Shown piece after piece: positions 6,001-54,647 of a stretch of 55,829 bases of DNA (position 1 is its first letter; each line of letters begins with the position of its first letter). Source of the DNA: a virus; the IMG/VR virus record IMGVR_UViG_3300017527_000200, positions 1-55,829 of that record; one strand, 5' to 3'. A program made the position numbers and the translations under genes. Below the pieces are notes generated by a model, which had not been told where the DNA came from, searched no databases, and saw only the letters and a list, made by a program, of their open reading frames with translations.

Positions 6001-9000
6001 CATGTTCTGGATCTACCCTTGAAGCATCAAAGGTTCCTACGTTGTCTCTTGCCCATCTTGCACCCCCAGAAACAGAAACCCCACTCTCTGGCAGGGCCTC
6101 TTTTGGCGCAGTTTTTTCACTCAGCATGGACTCACTAACATTAAGCACCTGCTCAAGCGCGTTAACATGCCCAGCTTTTGCCTTTGGGATATTCAACAGT
6201 TTACGGATGATATCAACGAAAGCATCCCAGGCAGTTGTAGTCTCACCTTTTACTCCAACGTCACTCACCTTAATCTCTATCTCTTTAAGGCGGTTTTGAA
6301 ATGACTCATTGGAGAAAACTTCAGCAATAAACTCCTCTACATTAGTAAATCCGTACTCATCCCTGGCATCTAGCCCCGTCTGATCCATGATGAGTTTGCG
6401 CAAAGCGTCTAACTGGTTTCTTACTTCGCTTCCGCCCACCCACGTTTCATTAGCGGCAGCATGTATTGTCTCATGCATAAGAGTATGAGTAAGCGTAATT
6501 TTATGGGCCGTTGATTCAATGAAGGGCCTCATATTTACCATGATGTACGCTTTACTTCCTTTCTCACTGCTGACATATACGCCTAGTTCACCTTTCCGCT
6601 CCCTCATCTCTGTCTGAGTCATTGGCCGAATAGCTATATTTAGATTCAGAGCGCGAATCATTTTTGCTATGTGTTTTATGATCGGATTACTGGTTTTCGC
6701 AATAATTACATTTAGTACATCGTTTATCGTGGCTGAACTATCCTTTTCCATCACAAGGTCTATGAGAGCATCATCTACTGCATTACTACTTTCTTTTTCT
6801 CCTGCCGCCTGGCTCTCTGTCTTTTTCTCTGCTTGCTCTTTCGCTTCAAGTGGTTTCTCCTGTGTCTCTCGAATAATTTCCCGCTGAAAACGCACATGAT
6901 TTGCGTTTCTTTTCATCGTTCCATGCCGAATCACTACACTATCTGAAACTTCTTCTGTGTTCTCAATAGTGAAACTGTAGGCCCCTTCAGAGCGCCGGCC
7001 GTGTTCTGCGCCGTACTTCTTTAGCTTATCCATCATGTGCTTAGGCAGGTTGCCGGTAAATATCCATGATTCAACTTCAGCGCCATCTTCAGTAGATGTT
7101 GCACGCTCTGCTTTGTCCATCAGCCATTTAATAGCTGGTTGGTTTAATGCAGATTCATGTTTTGATTGATCAGCAACCTCCTCTTTCTTCTCTTTTGGCG
7201 CTATCTCTTTGGTTTTGCTGGGTTCTTTTGATTGACGAGTAATTGATTCCAACGCACCACGAACACTCTCAGCTTGATTCTTCCCAAACCGCAGCCCATC
7301 ACGCATAGGCAGGCCCTTGACCTCGATGCCGGCCTCTTTCAGCTTGGCTCGAATAGCCTCTTTGTCACCCTTTACGATAATGCCGTCATTTTTGGCTGGG
7401 GTGATTTCAAAGGCTCCACGTGATTCCTTGAATGCTTGTTGGATTTCTTCGTACAGCCGATCAATCGCACGGTTTCCAGGAATAGATTGATCAGCGCCTT
7501 CTATCCTTGGCCATAACTCGTTAAGGAGGTTTTCAAGATGATCTGGGTTGGTTTTATTATTCTCGAAATCAGCTCGTATATCACGCATGCCGCGCTCAGA
7601 CTTGCTTTTTGACTCCCCCTTTTTAGGTTGCTGATCGCGTTTCTTTTTCCCTTCTCTGGACCGTCTATCCCTTTCGGCAAATAATGGATCAGTCTTTACA
7701 GCCTCATATTCACGCCCGGTATCACTGCGATCAGTAAAAACTAGCCCAGCCTTACGCAAAGCCTGCTGTTCTTCAGGTGTAAAAATGTTTAACGGCGCTG
7801 AAAAAGTATCGCCGTAATCTGCTGCAGCAACCAATGCACCATCTGGTACTTTTTTGGCTGTTTTTTCTGCTATAGCATCGGTCTTTTTAGTCCGCCGATT
7901 GATAACATATTCATTCAACTCTTCATTGCGAGCGCCTATTTCCCCTCGCATGGTTTCATACTGCTCCCAATACGGATCAAGTGATGGGTCATTACCATCT
8001 ACACCAGAATCAATAGCTTCATTGATATATTTCTCTTTAAAGTCAATTAGTTCTTTTTCTAACGCATTAAGTTCTGCCGTCTTTTTAACAAACCATGGGT
8101 CAGACGCAACAATTTTTGCTGACTCAACCTTAGAAACAGAAACCCCACTCTCTGGCAGGGCCTCTTTAGGTATTTGTGGAAGATCGAATGGCTTCCCGAG
8201 TGGGGCTATTGTGGTTTTTGCTGGCGCTTCACCGGTTTGCGCCCCTCCTTCTTGTCCTGTCTCCACTTGTCCAGCACGCTCTTGGTCTCCTGGTTTGACT
8301 GCTGTTTCTGTTTGTTCTGCATTTACCTCTCCATACATGCGCCGATCGAGTTCCAGCATTACAGCCATGGGATCAGCGTTTTCAGTCTGAATTATTACGC
8401 GCTCTACTTCATCATAGCCCAGTTTCTGCTCGGCTTCCTCGATGATTTCGCGCAGTTGACGCTGCTGAATGTTCCATGTCTCATCATAAGCATCCTCCAT
8501 GAAGTTCTCACCGGTAACACTTTCCACCGGTGTACCAAAACCCGCCTCACGCATTCTGCGGTGCGATTCAAGCTTGTCCCGGGCAAAGTCCATGCTGTCT
8601 GGACTTGTGCGCTCTCCAGTAACCTCGTCCAGCATAGTGGTGACAATGCGCTGCTCACCTACTCCCAGCTTCTTACCGGCTAGGGCTTTCTCTACGGTCT
8701 TCTGTACTTTCTCTACTGTAGGCTTGTTCTCGGACCACTCCTTGAACCAGGCAGGGTTGATAGAAGGAAGTTTCCCTTTAACTTTTCCGTTTTCGTCATA
8801 CAACACCCCCAGGCCGCCACCCTTAGTCAAATCGCCGGCCATGGACTCAAGAGCCGCACGATGGCCTGCACGCTTCATGCGTGGATCCGTGAAGTTCTCA
8901 GGTAGCTTTACATCCCTCAGTTCGTCCTGAAGGGCGCCTATGCGCTCGTCCTGGTCTATTCGGCGATCTGCTTGTTGCTGAGTTTCAATATCAGTCGGGA

Positions 9001-17223: not shown

Positions 17224-17681
17224 CAGACGTCATCCACTGAGTAATCGCCGGTCTGCCATACGCTGTTTGTTCCAGCGAAGGCTTGGCCAGTCTCATTTAA
17301 CACACCTACCTTGTAATTCCCGTTTGGCAGTCGAACTCCTGCTGCCGTAAGGTTTCGCGCAGTTACTGCGGCATCCATCGGGAAGGTAACATCGCTACCA
17401 TCATCATATTTTGCGATGTAGTGCTTGGCTGTTATGAGAGTGGATGTATCGCCATAAGTGCCGTTTACTTCCGGTACAATCAGCAAAGATACAGGCTCAC
17501 TAGCGTCCCTGGCCGCTCCCTGAATACCAACCGCAATCAAGAAATTAGACAGCATATTCCTTTCTGCGGTGGCATCGTTAGATTGTGCTGGCCCCAATGC
17601 CGCTGTGTCATCTGCCAGCGTTGCAAGTCCGGATATGGAAACAGCTGCACCAGTTCCAGCCTCTGTGAATTTTGCAGTCAT
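17223..17681 (-). CDS. small structural protein
   Basis: A 152-residue protein (MTAKFTEAGTGAAVSISGLA) with Gly/Ala/Ser/Thr-rich beta segments and no catalytic motif. It is the first gene after the terminator at 17701-17725 and the start of the coupled tail block 17.7 to 11.8 kb. Its ATG follows a clear purine-rich site (GAGGAAAAGACAA). A virion role is inferred from position. Confidence 0.65.
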   Translation of the reverse strand: MTAKFTEAGTGAAVSISGLATLADDTAALGPAQSNDATAERNMLSNFLIAVGIQGAARDASEPVSLLIVPEVNGTYGDTSTLITAKHYIAKYDDGSDVTFPMDAAVTARNLTAAGVRLPNGNYKVGVLNETGQAFAGTNSVWQTGDYSVDDV

Positions 17682-17700
17682 TTGTCTTTTCCTCGGTCAT

Positions 17701-17725
17701 AAAAAACCCGCTGAGTTAGCGGGTT
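17701..17725 (-). terminator. rho-independent terminator (minus strand)
   Basis: 8-bp stem AACCCGCT/AGCGGGTT with a 5-nt loop, followed on the minus strand by a T6 run. It separates the head-tail adaptor gene from the next structural gene. Confidence 0.85.
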
Positions 17726-17757
17726 AAGAAATCTTAACTTTCGATTAACTTAATCGT

Positions 17758-18417
17758 TTAGAACTTTCTTGGTCGCACGGTCTGGTTGTTTGGCACTTCT
17801 TTTCTGCGTTGCATCTGCTTCGCAGTGGGCTTGGGGCCAAACCAGCGCTCAAACAACGCCATTTCTGTTGCTTCTCTTTGTGGATCATAGGTATCGGAAT
17901 CCTGATCCCCTAATACTTCGGCACAAACCCCATGAACCAGCCCCGGACGATACTCTGCAAGTACCTCTAAATCATCTGAGGTATCTTCTATTGTGGTGAG
18001 CGGGCGCCGAAACACCTCAAGATTGAGCGTGTCATCAGCTTCTGGAATGTAGACCAGGCGGATATTGTTCCCGTACTGGTAAAACCATTTCGGAGTATCT
18101 TCAAGCTCCTCCCAGTTATAAACATTAACATCAAGATCACGCTGGGTAATCTGGGTAAGCGGCAATGACTCTGCCGACAGCTTGGCGCGCATCACCTTAA
18201 TGATGTACGGACTTAACGCATAGGTATGAGTACCGTCCACAACTGACACCTGGCACACGCTGGCAGTAGTCTTATCATGAATAAGGAGAGCCCGTTCAGA
18301 GGCCTCTCTTTGTACATTATCCAGCGCCCTGCACAATACCGTGTCTGAAAATATATACGGCTTGACTATATCATCCAACCTGTCGCGCACCGCTTGGATT
18401 GTTTCTTCTGTGTCCAT
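17758..18417 (-). CDS. head-tail adaptor-like protein
   Basis: A 219-residue protein starting MDTEETIQAVRDRLDDIVKP. The helical N-terminus and the middle NIRLVYIPEADDTLNLEVFR strand pattern, followed by helices ending in a basic tail (NNQTVRPRKF), match the layout of podovirus head-completion/adaptor proteins (DUF6682-like). It is located between the fibre genes and the tail block and is followed by a terminator. The family assignment is by resemblance and is moderately certain. Confidence 0.65.
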   Translation of the reverse strand: MDTEETIQAVRDRLDDIVKPYIFSDTVLCRALDNVQREASERALLIHDKTTASVCQVSVVDGTHTYALSPYIIKVMRAKLSAESLPLTQITQRDLDVNVYNWEELEDTPKWFYQYGNNIRLVYIPEADDTLNLEVFRRPLTTIEDTSDDLEVLAEYRPGLVHGVCAEVLGDQDSDTYDPQREATEMALFERWFGPKPTAKQMQRRKEVPNNQTVRPRKF

Positions 18418-38768: not shown

Positions 38769-39561
38769 TTCTTGTCTCCAGGTAGCTCTTAACCGGCAGT
38801 TCCAGATATGCCGGGCCAAAGGTTTTGTTTTTGTCTCTCTGTCTGAGGGATTCCACCAGGTTGGTTAGTTCTTCTGGTTTGAGCTCTGCCTGTTCCCAGT
38901 TGGCTACTAAACCGATCACCTTGGGTGTATGAACCTGTTCTTGTCTAAAGCCCAGCGCAGCAAGTGTGGCTATTAGCTGGCGCCTTGGCTCTGGTTTTTC
39001 TTCTGGCTGAGTAGATTCCCCTGCTGTGCTGTGCTGTTCTGGTCTGGTCTGGTTAGGGTCTGGTAGGGTCTGGTAGGGTCTGTTATCAGGAACGTCTGCG
39101 GGAACCCTTTCGATACCGTTCCGGAACCCTTTCGATAGGGTTTCGATACGGTTTAAAAAGTCATCACTCCAATATCTCCCATTCTTCTGTAATGCTTTGA
39201 TTAGATTAGGATATATGGATATTGAGCTTGGGATTGCATCAAACTCCTTAGCCCTGGCCTTTGCGGAATTAGGGTTTGATATTGGATTCCATCGCAAAAA
39301 CTCAGGAATAAGGATATATTCAGACGGTTTATCGTACTCCAGGAAACCCTTTCGATACAGTTGGTCGAACCCTTTCGATACCGTTTCGATAGGGATACCA
39401 AGGTCTATTGAAATGTATCCAACAGGCATCCTGAAACACCCTATTCCGCTGGTATGCTGGCAGGTCAATAGGTATGCTCCTATTACCTTGACCTCAATGG
39501 GAAGAGGCTGGATGTCTGGATGAGTCCAAAACGCTGACTGTATTTGTCCGTATTCTCTCAT
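38581..39561 (-). CDS. replication initiator O-like protein
   Basis: A 326-residue protein with an N-terminal winged-helix region (MREYGQIQSAFWTHPDIQPL, then AYLLTCQHTSGIG, VSKGFDQLYRKGFLEY) typical of phage O/DnaT-like initiators. Gln/Asn-rich linkers and a C-terminal GRN-rich segment follow. The gene itself carries an iteron cluster (39103-39391), as lambda O does. It probably binds the origin and recruits the P-like loader encoded in the overlapping gene. Confidence 0.75.
   Translation of the reverse strand: MREYGQIQSAFWTHPDIQPLPIEVKVIGAYLLTCQHTSGIGCFRMPVGYISIDLGIPIETVSKGFDQLYRKGFLEYDKPSEYILIPEFLRWNPISNPNSAKARAKEFDAIPSSISIYPNLIKALQKNGRYWSDDFLNRIETLSKGFRNGIERVPADVPDNRPYQTLPDPNQTRPEQHSTAGESTQPEEKPEPRRQLIATLAALGFRQEQVHTPKVIGLVANWEQAELKPEELTNLVESLRQRDKNKTFGPAYLELPVKSYLETRNGKGNSHSNQGNGSGKNKHQVARALIQADIERCFGPGAIIGGIHGQDETDIPGEVDSKTIEH
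39103..39391. repeat. iteron cluster, predicted replication origin
   Basis: Four exact copies of AACCCTTTCGATA (39103-39115, 39125-39137, 39345-39357, 39368-39380) plus two partial TTTCGATA copies (39141-39148, 39384-39391). They lie inside the O-like gene in two pairs separated by an AT-rich stretch (39180-39330). This arrangement resembles iterons in phage initiator genes. Confidence 0.72.
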
Positions 39562-43769: not shown

Positions 43770-44164
43770 GCAAAATACAACGCATAGAGATTGATTTTCC
43801 CACTGCGGTAAGCCTTCCGGATGGGTTTGAAAAAACACTAGACGCTTTGATTGGCATGGTCTGTGAGCAGTACGAGCGCGAGAATCCGGCAAGGGTGATG
43901 TGGCCAGCCGGTTGCGGATCAAAGCCTCTATGGCGTGAACCCGAAGAACCAGAGTATGACGATACCGTGTACTTCATTGAGGTCGCTGAAAGAGAAGACC
44001 TGCACGGCAGGAATCAGCACAACCCAGACCGCGACCGATTAAGAGCGGAAGTACTTGCCCGCCGAAAAACCAAAAAAACACAAGGCAAGAACTATTTCGC
44101 AGAGGACGGCACGCTGATGAACGCTGATGGCACCCGTAGTATTTTTGACGATGTTGATCAGTGA
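43766..44164 (+). CDS. hypothetical protein
   Basis: A 132-residue protein (MSKIQRIEIDFPTAVSLPDG), acidic in the middle (EPEEPEYDDTVYFIEVAERE) and basic toward the end (RRKTKKTQGKNYFAE). Coupled by 4-bp overlap to the previous gene and by the next GTG/ATG start to the nuclease. No family recognised. Confidence 0.65.
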   Translation: MSKIQRIEIDFPTAVSLPDGFEKTLDALIGMVCEQYERENPARVMWPAGCGSKPLWREPEEPEYDDTVYFIEVAEREDLHGRNQHNPDRDRLRAEVLARRKTKKTQGKNYFAEDGTLMNADGTRSIFDDVDQ

Positions 44165-44193
44165 AAGCGGCACATAACGAGAGAGGCATTAAT

Positions 44194-45078
44194 ATGAACG
44201 AAACAGCAACCAAACCACCGGTTACCGGCATTATACAGGGACTATCCAATGCGGATTATCACGCTGATAAGTCCAGTTACAGCAGTACTCTCATTAAAAA
44301 AATGGCGATACCCGCAGAGGCCAGATACGCGATGGAGAACCCTGGTGAGTATAAGGAATCATATCGGATTGGCGCTGCGTGTCATGCTTTTATCCTTGAG
44401 CCAGATGTATTCAAAAAGGAATTCAAGATCGCTCCAAAGATCGCCAGGCGCAGCGGTGCCGACAAGATGGCTTGGATCAGCTTTTTTATAGATAATGGAT
44501 GGTGTGAAGCAGAGGAGTTTGTTTATTCAAATAAAGCAGCCGAATGGAATCCCGCATTCACTGCGGCCACAGGTATTAATTTCGTAGACAAGGAGGAGAT
44601 TGAGCGCATTAATTTAATGGCAAAGTCCATGCAGTCAAATCCCAACGCAATGCGACTCTTACAAAATAGCGTTTCGGAGGCTTCTGTTTATTGGACGGAC
44701 GAATCAGGCCTTAACCTGCGCTGCCGACCTGATGCTTTAAGCGACAGTTTCATAACCGACCTAAAGACCGCAGAGCGCCTGGATGACTACGCAGTAGATA
44801 GATCCATAGCTAATTTTGGATATGATCTGCAAGACGCAATGTACACCCATGGCTGCCAGGTAGCATCAGGCAAGTATCGCCCTTTTACATTCATTTTCGC
44901 CCAGCCAAAGCCGCCCTTCATGGTGAGAGTGATCGTACTCAATGAGTACGCAAAGGAAAAAGGATGGGATAAGTACCAGGCAAATAAGGCAAGGCTGAAA
45001 GAGTGCCTTGACTCTGGGGTCTGGGCCCCACTGCCCGATGATCTTGATCATGAACTGTTTGCACGAAAAGGTGATTGA
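44194..45078 (+). CDS. exonuclease VIII-like PD-(D/E)XK nuclease
   Basis: A 294-residue protein from the ATG at 44194 (MNETATKPPVTGIIQGLSNA) after AGAGAGG. The core of a DUF3799/RecE-type PD-(D/E)XK fold is visible: LNLRCRPDALSDSFITDLKT with catalytic D and K, and a later FGYDLQDAMYTHG. It likely degrades one strand at a duplex end to give RecT its substrate. It is immediately upstream of RecT, so the pair forms a phage RecET-like recombination module. Confidence 0.82.
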   Translation: MNETATKPPVTGIIQGLSNADYHADKSSYSSTLIKKMAIPAEARYAMENPGEYKESYRIGAACHAFILEPDVFKKEFKIAPKIARRSGADKMAWISFFIDNGWCEAEEFVYSNKAAEWNPAFTAATGINFVDKEEIERINLMAKSMQSNPNAMRLLQNSVSEASVYWTDESGLNLRCRPDALSDSFITDLKTAERLDDYAVDRSIANFGYDLQDAMYTHGCQVASGKYRPFTFIFAQPKPPFMVRVIVLNEYAKEKGWDKYQANKARLKECLDSGVWAPLPDDLDHELFARKGD

Positions 45079-45154
45079 AGGCGCCCACGCAGAATATTGC
45101 GAAGCGGCTAATAAATATTACGGCGAATTTGCCAACAACGGAGAACACAAATGA
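45050..45154 (+). CDS. 34-residue small protein between exonuclease and RecT
   Basis: MNCLHEKVIEGAHAEYCEAA plus 14 residues; helical, Cys-containing, ending overlapping the RecT ATG (AAATGA). Starts inside the 3' end of the exonuclease gene. Coupling on both sides supports it. Function unknown. Confidence 0.45.
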   Translation: MNCLHEKVIEGAHAEYCEAANKYYGEFANNGEHK

Positions 45155-46302
45155 GCAAAGAAATTACAACCGCACCAGAGGCGCAAGCCCAAGAAATGGC
45201 CCTGCCATCATCCCCAGGCGAGTTAATGTTTTCGCCGGGCATGTTTGAGCGCGTTGAGCGAATGGCCGATATCTTGGCCAAGAGTAAGGCAATGGTTCCC
45301 AGGTTCTTGCGCAATAACCCATCTGACTGCATGTCGATTGTGATGAAGGCGGCACAATGGCGCATGGATCCGTATGCAGTGGCCGGCAAAGCATACCAAG
45401 CCGTTGATGGTGGCCCAATTGGCTACGAAGCCCAGTTAATTAACGCTGTAATCATTAACAACGCACCAATCGAAGGCCGTCCGAAATATGATTTCTTCGG
45501 TGACTGGAGCAAGATCCAAGGCAATATCGCCACAAAAACCAGCCAGAAAGGCAAAAAGTATCAAGCGGCTAACTGGAAAGATGCTGACGAAGAAGGCGTA
45601 GGCGTGACTATCTCAGTCACCCTGTCAGATACCGGTGAAGAGTTAAGTATGCCGGTACTCCTCAAGCAATGTTACCCGCGAAACTCCACCAACTGGGCGA
45701 ATGATCCGCAGCAGCAGATATGCTACCGCGCCATTCAGATCCTGTCTCGTCGTCACTTCCCTGATGTGACACTCGGCCTTTATACAAAGGATGAAGTAGC
45801 AGCCATCCCCGAGCGCGATATGGGCACAGCCGAGGTGGTTACGGACGTTGAAGACCTTCTAAAAGGTAACGATACTGGCGTCACCATTGACCGGGAGCCA
45901 GAGCCCAAACAAACAGAAGCGCCGACAGACAAGAAGCCAGCTATGGCTTCCAGCGAACAGGTAGCGGCAACCCTGGATGCTTTTGCAGCTATTGGCATCA
46001 TAAAGAAACAGGTTGACGGCTATCTCGGCGGTGACGCCAATGCAATGACATGGGATCAATACGTCGATCTACGCCAGGTATATGGCAAGGTCACTGAAAA
46101 AGGCCTCCCCATGAACGACTTCTTTGAAATGCCAAAATCCACGGTTACGCCGAACCAAATCGAGCAGATGCTTAATAGCGCCGACTCGGGTGAAAGCCTG
46201 TCCGATATCGAGGTTCTGATTAATACCTTGAGCGACGCTGAAGCCAAGGACCGTCTGAATGGCATGCTGGCAGTACGCCGCATGGAACTGGAAAGCAACT
46301 AG
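45151..46302 (+). CDS. recT: RecT-family ssDNA annealing protein
   Basis: A 383-residue protein with the RecT signature segments CMSIVMKAAQWRMDPYAVAG and GGPIGYEAQLINAVII, a core RAIQILSRRHFPDVTLGLY, and an acidic variable tail (~230-383). RecT anneals complementary single strands and, with the upstream exonuclease, promotes recombination and repair of phage DNA. It is slightly longer than typical phage RecT because of the C-terminal extension, which may bind partners such as SSB. Confidence 0.92.
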   Translation: MSKEITTAPEAQAQEMALPSSPGELMFSPGMFERVERMADILAKSKAMVPRFLRNNPSDCMSIVMKAAQWRMDPYAVAGKAYQAVDGGPIGYEAQLINAVIINNAPIEGRPKYDFFGDWSKIQGNIATKTSQKGKKYQAANWKDADEEGVGVTISVTLSDTGEELSMPVLLKQCYPRNSTNWANDPQQQICYRAIQILSRRHFPDVTLGLYTKDEVAAIPERDMGTAEVVTDVEDLLKGNDTGVTIDREPEPKQTEAPTDKKPAMASSEQVAATLDAFAAIGIIKKQVDGYLGGDANAMTWDQYVDLRQVYGKVTEKGLPMNDFFEMPKSTVTPNQIEQMLNSADSGESLSDIEVLINTLSDAEAKDRLNGMLAVRRMELESN

Positions 46303-48079: not shown

Positions 48080-48739
48080 AGTGGGTCATTTTTGCATAGA
48101 CAACCAGAAGTGCAGAGCGTGCCAAGTACCATTAGACAACCAAGTGGAGCAAGCGAGTCACCGTATAGTAGACAACCATAACTGTTAAGCGAACCAATAT
48201 TGTACGAGACAACCATACTCCAGGAGTGAGCCAAACCATGTTAGACACCCAGAGGTGTTAAGCGAGTCAGGCGATGAAAGACACCCGTAATGAGGAAGCG
48301 AGTCAGATGATGACAGACACCCGTGGCGAAAAAGCGAGCCACCGTATAGCAGGCAACCAATTGAAGTAAGCGAGTCATTTTGATACAGACAACCATTATA
48401 GTGAAGCGAGCCACGCGAGGAGAGACAACCACACTCATTAAGTGAGCCAATCACACCGAGACAACCAACGAAGCATCAGCGAGCCAAAGGGTGACAGACA
48501 ACCATGTGGCGAAAGCGAGTCAGGAATAGAAAGGCAACCATAAATACTAAGCGAGCCAACGGAATCCAGACAACCATGGCTACCGAGCGAGCCAATAGTA
48601 TCAAGACAACCAAATAGATAAAGCGAGCCATAAGAGGTAAGACCCCCGACATGATTACAGCGAGCCAATATCTTTTAGACAACCAAATAGAAAAAGCGAG
48701 CCAAGTTTGAGTAGACACCCATACACCAGGAGCGAACAT
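48080..48739 (+). ncRNA. TIGR-type tandem interspaced guide RNA array (18 units)
   Basis: Nineteen copies of a B-type 9-mer (consensus AGCGAGCCA; first 48080-48088, last 48731-48739) alternate with eighteen A-type 9-mers (consensus AGACAACCA; first 48098-48106, last 48713-48721). Thirty-three of the 36 spacers are exactly 9 nt and three are 10 nt, so the period is 36 nt with two variable segments per unit. Eleven of the 18 A copies are identical, as are 8 of 19 B copies. Spacers share no sequence except a few near-duplicates. The layout (two different short repeats, two ~9-nt spacers per 36-nt unit, array next to a Nop/IS110-like protein) is that of TIGR arrays, whose RNAs are cut into 36-nt guides. 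It is not CRISPR: repeats and spacers are far too short. The final repeat contains the ATG of the downstream gene. Confidence 0.9.
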
Positions 48740-49632: not shown

Positions 49633-49824
49633 TTGCTCATACTTACGAGAAGAATTGGTGAATCCCTGAAGATCGGGGATGAAGTAACCGTAACCATTCT
49701 GGGAGTGAAAGGGAATCAAGTACGCATTGGAACAGATGCGCCTCGTGGTATCTCGGTTCACCGGGAAGAGATTTACGACCGCATCAAGCAGGAAGGCAGG
49801 CAGGGAGGGAAAAATGGAAATTAA
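49633..49824 (+). CDS. csrA: phage CsrA-type RNA-binding regulator
   Basis: A 63-residue protein beginning with TTG after AAAAAAGGAG. It reads [20 protein letters not shown] and continues to [18 protein letters not shown]. It keeps the RNA-contact residues L4, R6 and R7 in strand 1 and the R44 of VHREE. CsrA binds A(N)GGA motifs around ribosome sites and changes translation or stability of the message. A phage copy could redirect host carbon metabolism or regulate phage genes. The TTG start may tune it down. Confidence 0.92.
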
Positions 49825-53948: not shown

Positions 53949-54647
53949 ATGGAAAATAAATTATCTGTTCCCGCGCGCTTTATGAGTTATGTCCTGATTG
54001 ATGAAAAGACTGGTGCCTGGTTGTGGCAAGGCGGAAAGACTAGCGCGGGATATGGTGGTTTCTGGATAGATGGCAAAACAGTCGGGGCTCATAGGTATGC
54101 CTATGAAATGAAACACGGCCCAATCCCTGATGGCCTGCATGTCTGCCATAAATATGAGGTACTAGGCCGGCATAACGTCAATCCCGATCACTTGTTTTTA
54201 GGAACCATCTCAGATAACAACAAGGATGCAGCTAAGAAAGGACGTACCGCCTATGGTGAAGCTAATGGGCAGCGCAAATTAACCGAAGCTCAAGCGACAG
54301 AAATACGCACATCCACTGAAACTGGAGCTATATTAGCCTCCCGTTATAATATTTCTGAAACAGTAATCAGCAAAATCAAACGTGGCACCGCATGGGTACG
54401 CACACAAGGATCTCCATTAGGAGCGGTTACTATCCACTCTCTTCGGAACAAGTCTGGTTATCGCGGGGTCTGCTGGAAAAGAGGGGCATGGGAAGCGTCT
54501 ATCACTGTCACCAGGGAAAAGAGGAAAAGCGCCATCTATCTTGGGAGGCATCAAGATCCAGCAGATGCCGCAAAAGCCTATGACAAAGCGGCGATTAAGT
54601 ACAAAGGCAACAATGCCAAATTAAATTTCCCAGAACAACTGCTATGA
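53949..54647 (+). CDS. HNH endonuclease with AP2-like C-domain
   Basis: A 232-residue protein: N-terminal HNH domain (IDGKTVGAHRYAYEMKHGPI, then GLHVCHKYEVLGRHNVNPDHL, with H-N-H residues), a HTH-like stretch (RKLTEAQATEIRTSTETG), and a C-terminal AP2-type DNA-binding domain (NKSGYRGVCWKRGAWEASIT, then AAIKYKG). It is a typical phage homing endonuclease and probably moved here with the surrounding cassettes. Not part of the tas gene. Confidence 0.85.
   Translation: MENKLSVPARFMSYVLIDEKTGAWLWQGGKTSAGYGGFWIDGKTVGAHRYAYEMKHGPIPDGLHVCHKYEVLGRHNVNPDHLFLGTISDNNKDAAKKGRTAYGEANGQRKLTEAQATEIRTSTETGAILASRYNISETVISKIKRGTAWVRTQGSPLGAVTIHSLRNKSGYRGVCWKRGAWEASITVTREKRKSAIYLGRHQDPADAAKAYDKAAIKYKGNNAKLNFPEQLL

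Follow-up and report, generated by a model that had tools for sequence, protein, structure and literature searches.

In a tailed phage we identify a TIGR-TasA locus, and are highly confident both of its membership of this group and of its RNA-guided binding of DNA. TIGR-Tas is a family of RNA-guided DNA-binding systems that was described in 2025 (Faure et al. 2025, PMC12045711). Membership rests on the array, on protein homology, on a conserved register, on covariation and on genome context, and the predicted fold of the protein also supports the initial annotation, which had assigned the array and an adjoining Tas-like protein to TIGR-Tas. The stretch of DNA that was analysed as a whole (the window) comprises 55.8 kb of a virus record, in which terminase, portal and capsid-like genes were read by eye from the list of open reading frames. 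The features of the locus and its surroundings are as follows:

44161–45078, + strand: RecE-like PDDEXK exonuclease, upstream of the array (context, not core)
45151–46302, + strand: RecT annealase, upstream of the array (context, not core)
48080–48739, + strand: TIGR array with 19 edge repeats, 18 loop repeats and 36 spacers
48080–48088, + strand: first edge repeat, AGTGGGTCA, degenerate rather than strictly truncated
48098–48106, + strand: first loop repeat, AGACAACCA (motif reading after PMC12045711)
48728–48732, + strand: AGGAG, Shine-Dalgarno-like, spanning the junction between the last spacer B and the last edge repeat
48731–48739, + strand: last edge repeat, AGCGAACAT; its 3' end is degenerate, and the repeat overlaps the tasA start codon
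48738–49604, + strand: tasA, encoding a 288-aa Nop-domain protein in which no nuclease domain was found; the reading frame abuts the array
49633–49824, + strand: csrA-like phage gene, directly 3' of tasA (context)

Array anatomy and the Tas protein

Parsing of positions 48080–48739 gave 37 repeats of two alternating 9-nt types, 19 edge repeats (AGCGAGCCA type) and 18 loop repeats (AGACAACCA type), with 36 spacers between them (33 of 9 nt and three of 10 nt). This bears out the 37 alternating 9-mers of the initial annotation, with the qualification that many repeats are inexact copies: AGACAACCA is exact in 11 of the 18 loop repeats, while AGCGAGCCA, the edge consensus, is exact in 8 of 19. The array parser, which chains two repeat types at steps of about 18 nt, scored the array at 189; in 200 dinucleotide-shuffled versions of the region its score never exceeded 16, and the remainder of the 55.8-kb window gave 11. 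A search of Rfam gave no match. Elsewhere in the window (39038–39082), a short tandem repeat, TCTGGTAGGG, occurs in about four copies.

Published TIGR arrays have a truncated edge repeat at either end, loop repeats with an A-rich centre and edge repeats with one extra base pair (PMC12045711). We take AGCGAGCCA to be the edge repeat and AGACAACCA the loop repeat because the ends of the array are of the AGCGAGCCA type and the centre ACAA lies in AGACAACCA, where it is flanked by a box D-like AG and a box C-like CCA; edge and loop repeats alike open with AG at the box D position and close with CCA (box C). The terminal edge repeats are degenerate or truncated, as in the published arrays, and the array as a whole shows the two distinct, alternating repeats of 8–12 nt and the spacers of about 9 nt that characterize TIGR-Tas. 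Alternation of repeats with variable spacers is also what a CRISPR-like array would offer, but the repeats here are only 9 nt long and of two alternating kinds and their neighbour is a Nop-domain Tas protein, so that the anatomy of the array rules this reading out and leaves it a negligible probability.

By sequence, the tasA product matches the solved structures of TasR (9mty, E 1.9e-13) and TasH (21kl, E 5.1e-10), and a profile of 14 relatives strengthens both matches (4.9e-18 and 5.4e-14, respectively). In a fold search with the AlphaFold model of the 288-aa protein (mean pLDDT 73), ten TasH/TasR chains were the only PDB matches below E 0.001, and archaeal Nop5 (3pla), a weak fold match, ranked after them. 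The similarity to TasR and TasH, in sequence as in fold, falls in the Nop domain, which places a Nop-domain Tas gene directly beside the array. No RuvC or HNH nuclease domain was found in the protein by Pfam, and it was therefore assigned to TasA, the solo Nop form.

Pfam did return a partial match to Transposase_20 (residues 123–172, 1.3e-5) and the PHROGs family carries the label 'transposase', both of which would fit an unusual IS110-family transposase with a repeat-rich neighbour and no RNA guides. A DEDD catalytic domain, as such an enzyme would have, was however not found in the 288 aa, the protein resembles Tas proteins in both sequence and fold, and the array is conserved in 52 of 61 clusters of relatives; the Tas match and the conserved array rule the transposase out, and we regard it as very improbable. 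IS110 transposases and the box C/D snoRNP protein Nop5 share the Nop/RNA-binding fold with TasA, but they work with bridge RNA or snoRNA guides and other catalytic partners, and have no 36-nt dual-repeat array.

Among known systems, the locus is closest to TIGR-TasA (e.g., Flavonifractor plautii FpTIGR; PMC12045711). In both, a solo Nop protein is encoded next to an array with two kinds of repeat, each 36-nt unit holds two 9-nt spacers, the terminal edge repeat is truncated, and box C (CCA) and covarying pairs in the edge repeats are present. The phage locus differs in that the array lies upstream of tasA and runs into its start codon with no terminator, and in having 18 units where 5–15 are commonest. 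Box D starts with AG here, whereas it starts with UG in TasR arrays (PMC12045711). TasR of a Thermoproteota archaeon (9mty) has the homologous Nop domain and the same repeat logic, but carries an N-terminal RuvC nuclease that the phage TasA lacks. TasH of Salicola phage CGphi29 (21kl, 9w04) is likewise phage-borne and similar in its Nop domain (5e-10) and fold, but has an HNH domain and spacers that total 16 nt. Salicola phage CGphi29, the source of SpTasH (PMC12045711), and Microcystis phage Mvi-JY20 were the only annotated phages with a Tas relative in tblastn searches, and the plasmids searched contained none. The relative in Mvi-JY20 (PP438412.1, 21520–22056) is annotated as a hypothetical protein; as a cyanobacterial phage with a named host, Mvi-JY20 may be a culturable model for Tas.

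The 9/9 register across related loci

From three rounds of searching in viral and genome contigs, 96 loci with a tas relative were assembled, the window included. Arrays were counted if they lay within 2.5 kb of tas, and clusters were drawn at 90% tas identity. An array with a 36-nt period stands beside tas in 85 of the 96 loci and in 52 of the 61 clusters, several of the loci that lack one being cut at the contig end. Loss of the 9/9 register where the Tas-like gene is kept, which the initial annotation had named as evidence against its reading, was looked for across these loci and did not occur. The 36 spacers that it counted also stand, but their number is not unusual among relatives, some of which have arrays of about 50 units (L094). 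In 57 of the 85 loci the array is found downstream of tas, in 24 upstream and in four on both sides.

Edge repeats vary between clusters (variants include AGCGAGCCA, AACGAGTCA and AGTGAACCA), and they do so in pairs. Positions 3 and 6 are CG in 97, TA in 27 and TG in 8 of 139 variants, i.e., standard pairs in 95%, while positions 2 and 7 are GT in 51, GC in 47 and AT in 30, with standard pairs in 93%. None of 5000 shuffles reached the observed pairing at 3–6 and 2–7, although related arrays enter the counts and the shuffle results are hence not strict probabilities. The highest mutual information among all pairs of edge positions was found for 3–6. Both covarying pairs agree with the base pairs of the edge repeat in PMC12045711, a box C/D pair and one further pair.

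These data also bear on whether the array could be a protein-coding or satellite repeat with a period of 36 nt (12 codons). The period is divisible by three, and on the – strand open frames as long as 89 aa are contained entirely in the array; against this, the frame shifts at each of the three 10-nt spacers, the variable part makes up half of every unit while the repeats are constrained at RNA pairing positions, and the array is downstream of tas in most relatives. Register and covariation rule such a repeat out, and its likelihood is close to nil.

Several relatives deviate in the protein or in the placement of the array. In L022–L025 the Tas match is limited to at most 69 N-terminal residues and an array was not found; these copies may be in decay, although L025 breaks off with its contig. 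The Tas proteins of L016, L019 and L021 carry long insertions after the GIGPAMAG...YAGLDV motif. In L074, arrays lie several kb from tas on both strands (17551–18378, and 7766–7995 on the – strand in reverse-complement coordinates), possibly acting in trans.

Genome context and proposed mode of action

The array and tasA sit within a recombination module, downstream of the RecE-like exonuclease and RecT genes. In relatives, DNA polymerase A, a PD-(D/E)XK nuclease, an SNF2 helicase, a YqaJ exonuclease, SSB, a Sak annealase and an Hjc-like resolvase are encoded near tas. A further gene in the window (53949–54647) matches PHROG HNH families and possibly encodes a homing endonuclease.

No sigma-70-like promoter was found at the array. 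At its end, no rho-independent terminator was found on the + strand, since the array runs straight into tasA; such a terminator follows typical published arrays (PMC12045711) and is a common but not a defining trait of TIGR-Tas. The sequence reads AGGAG-CGAAC-ATG, with AGGAG 5 nt ahead of the tasA start codon, for which it would serve as the Shine-Dalgarno sequence. Processing of the last edge repeat, if it takes place, would separate AGGAG from ATG, and tigRNA maturation could therefore lower TasA synthesis.

By analogy with the published system (PMC12045711), processing to 36-nt RNAs and targeting split between the two DNA strands would take place at this locus as the initial annotation supposed. 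As no promoter-like site was found ahead of the array, its + strand transcript would probably also cover tasA and the recombination genes upstream. TasA dimers would then bind the box C/box D repeats of this transcript, while cuts by a host RNase in the middle of each edge repeat would release 36-nt tigRNAs that bear spacer A and spacer B. The TasA-tigRNA complex may bind an 18-bp DNA site, with A pairing to one strand and B to the adjacent part of the other. For a TasA that lacks a nuclease, blocking or bending of the target is a more likely outcome than cutting, and tigRNA-guided DNA binding without cutting is thus the most likely role in the light of the published work on TasR and TasA. That this binding serves interference with other mobile elements is a tentative proposal to which we give somewhat less than even chances.

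The published cut positions leave 8-nt 3' overhangs (PMC12045711), from which we infer the target geometry used here: spacer A, then spacer B in reverse complement, with 0–2 nt permitted as a gap between them. Under this model no spacer pair of the window has a match with fewer than four mismatches in the phage's own 55.8 kb, and a control geometry behaved much alike. This speaks against a use of TIGR-TasA for the phage's own regulation, recombination or integration by bending DNA at sites in its own genome or the host's, to which the surrounding RecE-like and RecT genes, the polymerase, helicase, YqaJ, SSB, Sak and Hjc-like genes near relatives, and the suggestion that TasA bending might help integrases (PMC12045711) would otherwise point. 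Spacers, moreover, turn over between near relatives, which would not be expected if they regulated the phage's own genome; we consider own use unlikely.

Target searches and array turnover

The natural targets of TIGR arrays, and how the arrays gain and lose guides, are open questions of PMC12045711. The family supplies 1042 distinct guide pairs, a homogeneous set; together with arrays that share their ends and with one candidate target, they make both directly testable.

Against 1.2 Mb of related phage DNA, the 1042 pairs gave 1, 9 and 109 best hits at 0, 1 and 2 mismatches, compared with 0–2, 4–15 and 95–119 for shuffled pairings. Scans of the whole of IMG/VR with two guides of the window returned one independent hit each, which puts the number expected by chance at about one per scan. 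Overall, 2.2 Mb of phage DNA gave no clear excess of matches.

The candidate target belongs to the guide that is best conserved in the relatives (A TAGAGGTCA, B AGCGAACTA). In the geometry given above, this guide matches a phage AAA_25 helicase gene exactly and with a gap of 0:

L097, 1590–1607: helicase site of the TAGAGGTCA/AGCGAACTA guide, exact, gap 0
L098, 5985–6002: helicase site of the same guide, exact, gap 0

The site falls within the conserved LRGHSSL motif of the AAA_25 protein, and the three variant bases in this guide family all coincide with helicase polymorphisms (post-hoc probability of about 0.02). One of the helicase contigs comes from a sample whose number is adjacent to that of a relative with a variant guide. 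When all guides were compared with 80 helicase-bearing loci (1.0 Mb), 12 pairs matched with at most one mismatch, against 3–5 in shuffles; four of the 12 belong to the TAGAGGTCA/AGCGAACTA family, and the excess is small without it. Scans with two variants of the guide did not return the helicase: one gave no hit, the other a non-helicase sequence (two contigs, 2-nt gap). A motif search for further helicase guides found none beyond the level of shuffles. We treat the helicase match as a lead only, which the two follow-up scans did not corroborate, and it seems quite improbable that TIGR-TasA phages aim guides at conserved sites in the replication genes of competitors; if true, TasA would silence the replication of competitors with no cutting.

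Some units are common to many pairs of loci, and variant units with 1–4 base differences are common within and between arrays. The variable positions are distributed nearly uniformly along the spacer, with no seed-like mismatch bias, and no codon-phase signal was found in the spacer variants. Two closely related phages with similar tas genes offer direct material on how TIGR arrays change:

L006, 10715–11656: array, with units moved relative to L007
L007, 10833–11975: array, with units moved relative to L006

The first and last units of these arrays are common to both and the middle units differ, and the unit GAGGGTAAA/GAAAAGCGC is placed differently in the two.
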